Source: Verrucomicrobiota bacterium (GTDB lineage: Bacteria; Verrucomicrobiota; Verrucomicrobiia; Chthoniobacterales; Chthoniobacteraceae). Taken from it: DNA of 32,664 nt. The DNA is taken from positions 1 through 32,664 of the forward strand of contig BJFP01000006.1 of the NCBI GenBank assembly GCA_014189875.1. Reading direction: 5' to 3'. Shown piece after piece: positions 30,326 to 32,524 of the stretch. Made by a program: the position numbers and the translations under genes. The notes under the pieces are model-generated. The model did no database searches and had not been told where the DNA came from. It saw only the letters and a program-made list of their open reading frames with translations. Positions within the stretch are counted from its first letter, which is position 1, and every line of letters begins with the position of its first letter.

Positions 30326-30360
30326 CCGCCGACGGAAGGAGGCGGGCTGTTCCTCGGAAA

Positions 30361-30451
30361 GTGCTCAGTGCTCAGTGCTCAGTTCGCAGTGCTCAGTAAG
30401 AACAGGCTCCTCCTCCGCGTGACTGAGAACTGAGCACTGAGCACTGAGAAC
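30361..30451. repeat. heptamer tandem array forming an inverted repeat between convergent genes
   Basis: Five heptamers (GTGCTCA three times, GTTCGCA, GTGCTCA) run from 30361 to 30395. Four complementary heptamers (TGAGAAC, TGAGCAC, TGAGCAC, TGAGAAC) run from 30424 to 30451, with a 24-base spacer at about 30398-30421. The arms can pair over about 28 bases in several registers. The element lies between the stops of the DUF1552 gene and the convergent nuclease-like gene. Confidence 0.9.
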
Positions 30452-30452
30452 T

Positions 30453-31193
30453 TCACTTCCCGCTCCCCGCGACCACCGCATCCTCGCGGTACATGTCCGC
30501 ATTGCTCCCCTCGAACTCCGCCTTCAGCCGCACGCGGAACTTGCTGAGGTCGATCAGCTCCCAGCGCGTGAACTTCACCTCCGCGCCCGTCTTCTCGTGC
30601 TCGACGCCGATCACGAGATGGTGTGCATCGTCATTCACCTTGTTCGTCTCGCGCTTCGGCGTGAAATAAAACGTCCGCAGCGAACTGCGCTTGCTGCCGT
30701 TTGCATAGAGCTTCGGGTCGAGGTAGAAGATGCGCCCCGTCGCCTTGTCCACGAGCCGGATATCGGGATAGCCGCTGCGCTGCACATGCCCCGCCGCCGT
30801 CTTCGGCACTCCGCACTCGAAGCCCTCGATCTTGTTCAGCTTCGCCGCGATCGCGTCCTCGAAAAACTTGCTCATCTCATTCACGCGCTTCTGCCGTTTC
30901 GCGGGACTGTCCGCGGAGTTCATCTGCACGAGCACATCGTCGAGCACGGTGCCGATGCGTTTCAAAGTGCGCGTTGTGTCCGCATCCGCGCGATCCACGG
31001 GGAGCACGCGCTTGCCGCTCGTGGCGCTGATCACGTCGGAGAAAGGGATGCCCTTCAGCGCAGCATCCTCGTCGAGCAGCCACGGGATGAGCTGGCGGAC
31101 GGGCGACGGTTTTTCCTCGGCAAAGGTCGTCGTGCAGAACGTGAGGAGGCCGAGCAGAAGTGCGCGGATTGGGTTTCGGCAGGATTGTTTCAT
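30453..31193 (-). CDS. exported protein with a PD-(D/E)xK-like motif, unknown function
   Basis: The 246-residue protein starts with a Sec signal peptide (MKQSCRNPIRALLLGLLTFC, probable cleavage after A25). A helical region (LDDVLVQMNSADSPAKRQKR, FFEDAIAAKLNKIEGFEC) follows. A segment with SGYPDIRLVD (D144) and IFYLDPKLY (D159, K161) then gives a P-D...D-x-K arrangement, followed by SSLRTFYFTP and DAHHLVIGVEHE. The pattern of PD, DxK, then an S-S-[LF]-R-[TS]-F-Y stretch and a hydrophobic strand resembles uncharacterised restriction-endonuclease-like proteins. It is weak evidence: no structure prediction was possible here. The ATG at 31193 is chosen because it gives a clean signal peptide. A longer start at 31295 would overlap the phosphorylase stop (ATGA) but places the signal peptide internally. 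No methyltransferase is adjacent. Confidence 0.6.
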   Translation of the reverse strand: MKQSCRNPIRALLLGLLTFCTTTFAEEKPSPVRQLIPWLLDEDAALKGIPFSDVISATSGKRVLPVDRADADTTRTLKRIGTVLDDVLVQMNSADSPAKRQKRVNEMSKFFEDAIAAKLNKIEGFECGVPKTAAGHVQRSGYPDIRLVDKATGRIFYLDPKLYANGSKRSSLRTFYFTPKRETNKVNDDAHHLVIGVEHEKTGAEVKFTRWELIDLSKFRVRLKAEFEGSNADMYREDAVVAGSGK

Positions 31194-31229
31194 GCGTTCG
31201 TGATTCGACAGCGGAGGTGAGATGAGGAC

Positions 31230-31291: not shown

Positions 31292-32524
31292 TCATGCGAT
31301 CTCGATGGCCTGTCCGATGAGCGCGAGCGCAGCCTTCAGCGTTTCATCGCTTCGCGCGTGAACGGTGAGCAGCGGTTCGCCTGTCTGCACCGCAGTGCCG
31401 ATCTTTGAGATGCCGGAAACGCCGACGGCGAAATCAATCGCGTCGCTCGCCTTCGCGCGTCCGGCACCGAGCGCGATGCACGCGCGTCCGATCAGTCCCG
31501 CGTCCATGCGTGTGAGCTTCCCATCACGCGATGCAGTGACGACGTGGCGCAGCGGCGTGGCGTGGATTTCGACGATGCGCTCCGTGTCCGCGGCGCGCCC
31601 GCCCTGCGCTTCGACGAGCTGCACCCACTTGCGCCACGCGGTGCCGTCGTCGAGCCAGTGCGCGAGCTGCGTGCGCGGGACGTTGGCGATGCGCTCTGCG
31701 AGATCGAGCGTGAGCTTCACGAGGTCGGCGGGGCCGCGGCCTTGCAGCGTCTCGACGGATTCCCACACTTCGAGCGCGTTGCCCGCGGTGTGGCCGAGCG
31801 GCTCGCTCATCGGCGTGAGCACGGCTTCCGTTCTCACGCCGCACTCGCGCCCCGTCGCGCAGAGTGCGGCGGCGAGCGTCTCGGCGTCGGCGCGGTTTTG
31901 CATGAATGCGCCGCTGCCGAATTTCACGTCGAGCACGAGCCGGTCGAGCGACTCGGCGAGCTTCTTCGACATGATGCTCGCGACGATGAGCGGGATGCTT
32001 GGCACGGTCGCCGTCACGTCGCGCAGCGCGTAGAGCTTCTTGTCCGCCGGGCAGAGATTTGCCGTCTGCCCGATCATCGCCACGCCGATGCGCGCGAGCT
32101 GCGCGGCGGTTTCATTTTCGCTGAGCGAAACGCGGAAGCCGGGGATGCTCTCCAGCTTGTCGAGCGTGCCGCCCGTGATGCCGAGACCGCGCCCGCTGAT
32201 CATCGGCACCCAAAGATCGTCGCACGCGAGCAGCGGCGCGAGGATGAGCGAGACCTTGTCGCCGATGCCGCCGGTGCTGTGCTTGTCCACCTTCGGCGGC
32301 GAACCGGCGGGATGCGTCATCACGCTTCCGCTGTGCATCATCGCCCGCGTGAGTGCGCCAGTTTCCGTTGCGGTCATGCCCTTGAAATAGACGGCCATCG
32401 CCCAGGCCGCGGCCTGGTAGTCCGGCACCTCGCCGTCTGTGTAGCCGCGGATGAACCCGGCGATTTCCTCCGCGCTGAGTTCATGGCCGTCGCGTTTGCG
32501 TTCGATGAAAGTGGGGATGTGCAT
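31292..32524 (-). CDS. deoA: thymidine/pyrimidine-nucleoside phosphorylase
   Basis: It phosphorolyses thymidine or other pyrimidine nucleosides to the free base and (deoxy)ribose 1-phosphate in nucleoside salvage. The 410-residue protein has the N-terminal helical domain (AGFIRGYTDGEVPDYQAAAW), the phosphate-binding KHSTGGIGDKVSLILAPL, and the family signature SGRGLGITGGTLDKLESIPG. It also has LDVKFGSGAFM and a C-terminal PYNP_C domain ending LALIGQAIEIA. Sequence alone does not separate DeoA from Pdp. The ATG at 32524 gives the usual start (MHIPTFIERKRDGHELS); the open frame upstream is made of a TGACGGA heptamer repeat. The downstream nuclease-like gene may be co-transcribed. Confidence 0.94.
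   Translation of the reverse strand: MHIPTFIERKRDGHELSAEEIAGFIRGYTDGEVPDYQAAAWAMAVYFKGMTATETGALTRAMMHSGSVMTHPAGSPPKVDKHSTGGIGDKVSLILAPLLACDDLWVPMISGRGLGITGGTLDKLESIPGFRVSLSENETAAQLARIGVAMIGQTANLCPADKKLYALRDVTATVPSIPLIVASIMSKKLAESLDRLVLDVKFGSGAFMQNRADAETLAAALCATGRECGVRTEAVLTPMSEPLGHTAGNALEVWESVETLQGRGPADLVKLTLDLAERIANVPRTQLAHWLDDGTAWRKWVQLVEAQGGRAADTERIVEIHATPLRHVVTASRDGKLTRMDAGLIGRACIALGAGRAKASDAIDFAVGVSGISKIGTAVQTGEPLLTVHARSDETLKAALALIGQAIEIA

Follow-up and report, generated by a model that had tools for sequence, protein, structure and literature searches.

The usual picture of a restriction enzyme is of a weapon kept in the cytosol, from which the host is shielded by a methyltransferase, and enzymes without such a partner are puzzling; the locus described here raises the question of what a restriction-enzyme-like protein would do if it carried a signal for export and sat beside a gene for nucleoside breakdown. 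It lies in a window of 32,664 nucleotides, which is the whole stretch of DNA analysed and an entire contig (G000:C6) of a Verrucomicrobiota genome that is incomplete (93% complete, 6% contaminated) and has one clear copy of the gene. This gene occupies 30453..31193 on the minus strand and encodes a predicted exported nuclease of the PD-(D/E)xK, Type II restriction-enzyme-like kind, 246 residues long. Plus-strand ORFs that cross the same stretch (30597-31220 and others) were set aside as shadow ORFs, the conserved protein being the minus-strand one.

Active site, profile matches and fold of the nuclease

The protein begins with MKQSCRNPIRALLLGLLTFCTTTFA^EEK, followed by RVNEMSKFFEDAI and then by SGYPDIRLVDKATGRIFYLDPKLYANGSKRSSLRTFYF. 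An earlier note on this DNA had read in it a PD...DxK arrangement (D144, D159 and K161) and an SSLRTFYF stretch, and its residue numbers are right for the 246-residue minus-strand ORF: D144 (minus-strand codon 30762..30764) falls in a GYPD motif, D159 (30717..30719) and K161 (30711..30713), whose codons were checked by hand, fall in YLDPK, and SSLRTFYF is S170-F177. Conservation of the three residues had been named as a check, and in an alignment of 57 homologues (A1; identity down to 25%) D144 is invariant with the rest of its motif (G141-Y142-P143-D144), as are R103, N105, E106, E112 (codon 30858..30860), R173, F175, Y176, P179, K185, K224, E226, N231 and Y235, D159 and K161 being near-invariant. 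Of 60 sequences in another alignment, 59 have D at position 159 and one has E; likewise, 59 have K at position 161 and one has T. At 159 the odd one out is L083 (1462-2190), the most divergent member, where ECK replaces DPK (within MECK) and gives a canonical ExK; at 161 it is L027 (1498-2235), which has T for the catalytic lysine (YLDPTLY) and is otherwise intact. Conserved across the 57 aligned homologues, the active-site pattern exceeds chance.

A profile search, also proposed beforehand, returned PDLC03511 (PADLOC; 'Type II restriction enzyme', REase_II; E=5.5e-25) in a near full-length alignment of residues 46-241 of the nuclease with positions 21-224 of 230 in the model. PDLC03511 matches all 57 of the 57 aligned homologues, the top score being that of L083 (1e-31); the only control genome with a match to it is that of Methanocaldococcus jannaschii, the 13 others giving none. 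Homologues of the nuclease occur in 17 of 289 genomes across the phylum, all from the same class and not only from the same order; PDLC03511 matches in the 289 are confined to these 17 genomes with the exported family, and no separate cytosolic branch was seen among them. Within the order the distribution is patchy (72/197 genomes), and no relatives were found in plasmids, phages or viral contigs. Pfam and NCBIfam scans of the nuclease and all 57 homologues gave no matching model, only weak scattered matches, and PDB sequence searches with the nuclease gave matches at chance level only.

AlphaFold2 run on A1 produced a confident model (mean pLDDT 92) with E112 in a helix (104-121), D144 at the edge of a strand that comes after it (145-149), and D159 and K161 in the next strand (154-164). 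The fold had been set beforehand as another test that could refute the PD-(D/E)xK reading; it is predicted to be restriction-endonuclease-like, with EcoRV ranked first in a Foldseek search of the PDB (E=2.9e-4, probability 1.00, TM 0.41), SwaI second (TM 0.49-0.52, probability 1.00) and SfiI, BglI and HincII lower. The first 39 PDB matches were all to EcoRV or SwaI (probability 0.98-1.00); a viral structure library yielded nothing at E<=0.001. As the Foldseek E-values and TM-scores are modest, the model points to a superfamily core shared with EcoRV and SwaI rather than to close kinship. A comparison of sequence profiles with EcoRV gave nothing significant; its single short match aligns VQRSGYPDIRLV with KQQNHYPDFTLY. 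It is structure, then, that ties the nuclease to EcoRV. The nuclease and EcoRV are alike in the E...PD...DxK order of their catalytic residues and in structure, but they show no detectable sequence homology by profile comparison and belong to different PADLOC models; orthology with EcoRV was rejected, EcoRV matching its own model PDLC03472 at 9.7e-175 and the nuclease not matching it. By order along the chain, rather than by superposed coordinates, E112, D144, D159 and K161 are the proposed counterparts of E45, D74, D90 and K92, which we take to be the catalytic residues of EcoRV. The core fold is present and the PD...(D/E)xK site and the helix glutamate are conserved; computation thus places the nuclease in the PD-(D/E)xK superfamily, gives it a core like that of EcoRV and makes it kin to a family of Type II restriction enzymes. 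On the basis of fold, catalytic residues and family membership, the expected activity would be that of a metal-dependent DNA endonuclease.

Predicted export and the absence of a linked methyltransferase

The Sec signal peptide claimed in the earlier note is borne out by n-, h- and c-regions in MKQSCRNPIRALLLGLLTFCTTTFA^EEK, and a Sec-type signal sequence is predicted at residues 1-25 (31119..31193, minus strand), with cleavage after TTFA. Our own heuristic (not SignalP) was used here and for the homologues; it looks for a positively charged start, a hydrophobic stretch and small residues at the cleavage site. With the start codon left free, 51 of 58 homologues score as signal-like at the N-terminus; at fixed starts the count is 43/60, against 6/98 (a 6% background) for cytosolic neighbour families. 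In most of the remaining homologues the N-terminus is still plainly hydrophobic, and in L074, L079, L081 and L082 it looks like a membrane anchor. We regard export as well supported by these N-terminal sequences; the final site would be the envelope or the outside of the cell, and periplasm, outer membrane and medium are not separated by the heuristic. An in-frame ATG further upstream (31295) overlaps the phosphorylase stop codon (ATGA, 31292-31295) and would give a 280-residue form, an overlap possibly reflecting translational coupling or an alternative start. The 246-residue start is preferred because it results in a signal peptide of normal length.

The absence of a methyltransferase, likewise claimed beforehand, agrees with a simple motif scan that took in every called gene of 59 neighbourhoods, out to at most ~6 kb per side, and detected no amino- or C5-methyltransferase signature. 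The nuclease is like the PDLC03511 Type II family in its profile match and its PD...(D/E)xK active site, but unlike it in carrying a signal sequence and having no methyltransferase nearby. A Type II enzyme in the usual sense has a linked cognate methyltransferase and acts in the cytosol, as does EcoRV, which is cytosolic and paired with a methyltransferase; here no linked partner was found, and the signal-like N-termini, on heuristic grounds only, speak against cytosolic action. Many genomes are predicted to encode solitary Type II enzymes whose methyltransferases are unlinked, and such enzymes have been treated as a puzzle (PMC3488263); the nuclease resembles them as a Type II-like enzyme with no methyltransferase nearby, but export is not among the explanations offered in the available part of that paper. 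Secreted DNA-scavenging DNases (PMC8289736, PMC11495043) share with it both export and linkage to nucleic-acid catabolism. The secreted nucleases of these sediment and sludge surveys are endonuclease-type, NUC, SNase, HNH and lamin-tail-domain proteins, however, and none described in the available portions of the two papers is PD-(D/E)xK restriction-enzyme-like. A literature phrase search for a secreted, exported, extracellular or periplasmic restriction endonuclease, the scope of which excluded most subscription journals, returned no paper, and the novelty of a secreted restriction-enzyme-like nuclease is provisional.

Linkage to nucleoside catabolism

The pyrimidine-nucleoside phosphorylase claimed in the earlier note is confirmed as the neighbour: directly upstream of the nuclease, ~100 bp away and on the same strand, lies a gene (31292..32524, minus strand) for a 410-residue pyrimidine-nucleoside (thymidine) phosphorylase that matches PRK05820 (E=4.9e-151), TIGR02644 (above cut-off) and three Pfam domains. 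Conservation of this pairing had been suggested as a check. By tblastn, 14 of 59 neighbourhoods have a phosphorylase directly upstream on the same strand, at a gap of 3-174 bp, and 2 more have one within ~5 kb; an adjacent phosphorylase is absent in 45/59. Four families (f1, f8, f9 and f15) contribute the 14 linked loci, f15 belonging to another order. These loci are scattered over separated parts of the nuclease tree, several having a phosphopentomutase (deoB, TIGR01696 above cut-off) and/or an aldehyde dehydrogenase (PF00171) further upstream. What lies downstream of the nuclease varies from family to family: by inspection it is ribBA-ribH-nusB-ftsY-like in f8, histidinol-dehydrogenase-like in f9 and an opposite-strand gene in the window; the nuclease neighbourhoods hold housekeeping genes. 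In the sister clade f6 an OprB porin (PF04966) replaces the phosphorylase directly upstream in 10/10 neighbourhoods (L030, L033, L036, L044, L049, L050, L054, L057, L060 and L062), and is possibly an uptake partner of the nuclease. Across the order, 43 of the 72 genomes with the nuclease also have a phosphorylase, the two genes being no more than 400 bp apart in 18 of the 43, and the other 29/72 gave no phosphorylase match at E<=1e-20; the co-occurrence (odds ratio 5.6, P=7e-8) is descriptive only, as the P value ignores relatedness. Computation thus shows the nuclease to be genetically linked to nucleoside catabolism.

The genome that contains the window has both deoB and deoC. Its deoB stops 104 bp short of one end of another contig (C89), in an orientation fitting a place upstream of the window phosphorylase. 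That phosphorylase in turn begins 140 bp from the end of the window contig, and no sequence overlap was found between the two contig ends. A divergent GDP-fucose-synthase-like gene adjoins this deoB, as one does near the deoB-phosphorylase-nuclease block in relatives (e.g., L046), and a deoB-phosphorylase-nuclease operon in this genome is plausible.

Between the 3' end of the nuclease gene and the next gene, positions 30360-30450 contain a long near-perfect hairpin with a TGCTCAG heptamer repeat (z-score -5.6). Its 15-mer TGCTCAGTGCTCAGT is a dispersed repeat family, with 94 copies in this genome and 0 of the reversed control sequence.

A proposed role and its alternatives

We think it probable, with some reserve, that the protein is a restriction-enzyme-like DNase that is exported, works without a methyltransferase, cuts DNA outside the cell or in its envelope and feeds deoxynucleoside catabolism. 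It would leave the cytoplasm via Sec for the periplasm or beyond, with a few relatives apparently membrane-anchored, and would cut double-stranded DNA there, Mg2+ being held by E112, D144 and D159 and the attacking water assisted by K161. A protective methyltransferase would be unnecessary, because the inner membrane would separate the enzyme from the cell's own chromosome. Other enzymes would then degrade the fragments to deoxynucleosides for import, the co-encoded phosphorylase would split these, and phosphopentomutase (DeoB) and deoxyribose-phosphate aldolase (DeoC) would route the sugar into central metabolism. Because linkage with deoxynucleoside catabolism recurs, we put scavenging of external DNA first among the possible roles; the cleavage activity, the final location, the steps in between and the purpose of nutrition are what we infer. 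In the incomplete genome of the window we found neither a UshA-type 5'-nucleotidase C domain nor a NupC-type nucleoside transporter; this counts against the scavenging route, as it leaves a gap there between the nuclease step and the phosphorylase step, which other enzymes could fill.

The main rival to scavenging is that a sequence-specific exported restriction endonuclease forms an envelope barrier against entering phage or transforming DNA, again with the chromosome out of reach and no methyltransferase required. Such a barrier would suit the kinship with a Type II restriction-enzyme family, the patchy spread (72/197 genomes) and the occurrence of the nuclease in most genomes without an adjacent phosphorylase; moreover, the many invariant residues outside the catalytic set (R103, N105, E106, R173, F175, Y176, K185, K224, E226, N231 and Y235) could reflect retained sequence-specific recognition and so read a fixed sequence, which counts against scavenging because a scavenging DNase has no obvious need of sequence specificity. 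The repeated linkage to deoxynucleoside catabolism and the f6 porin suit nutrition better, however, and we found neither relatives on phages, plasmids or viral contigs nor a setting like that of mobile defence islands, the neighbours being housekeeping genes. We rate the barrier as unlikely, if still a serious contender.

The lack of K161 in L027 also counts against a nutritional reading, and it is the observation that would fit a family with lost or altered activity, serving in the envelope as a DNA-binding protein or in some other way; yet across the class practically every other member keeps the full catalytic set, which indicates continued selection for catalysis, and the DxK-to-ExK change in L083 preserves a canonical site, so that this account seems to us very improbable indeed. 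Nearly as hard to credit is a cytosolic solitary Type II enzyme whose hydrophobic N-terminus is no working signal and whose host is protected by a distant methyltransferase. The predicted solitary enzymes with unlinked methyltransferases (PMC3488263, in the part available) give it a precedent, but signal-like N-termini recur family-wide over a low background, a few relatives have apparent membrane anchors, and the 59 neighbourhoods hold no methyltransferase motif.

Returning to scavenging, a wider proposal, which we put forward tentatively and would sooner doubt than back, is that a whole Type II lineage was relocated outside the cytoplasm, keeping its sequence-specific cleavage, dropping its methyltransferase through export and being recruited for DNA foraging class-wide. 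Surveys of DNA-degrading bacteria would miss a nuclease of this type, since Pfam and NCBIfam do not recognize it. The nuclease and phosphorylase together would offer a DNA-foraging route in Verrucomicrobiota that is open to test. If true, the conserved exported family would represent a simple escape from the need for a methyltransferase, namely separation by compartment, and would show a path by which a defence enzyme may become a metabolic one.
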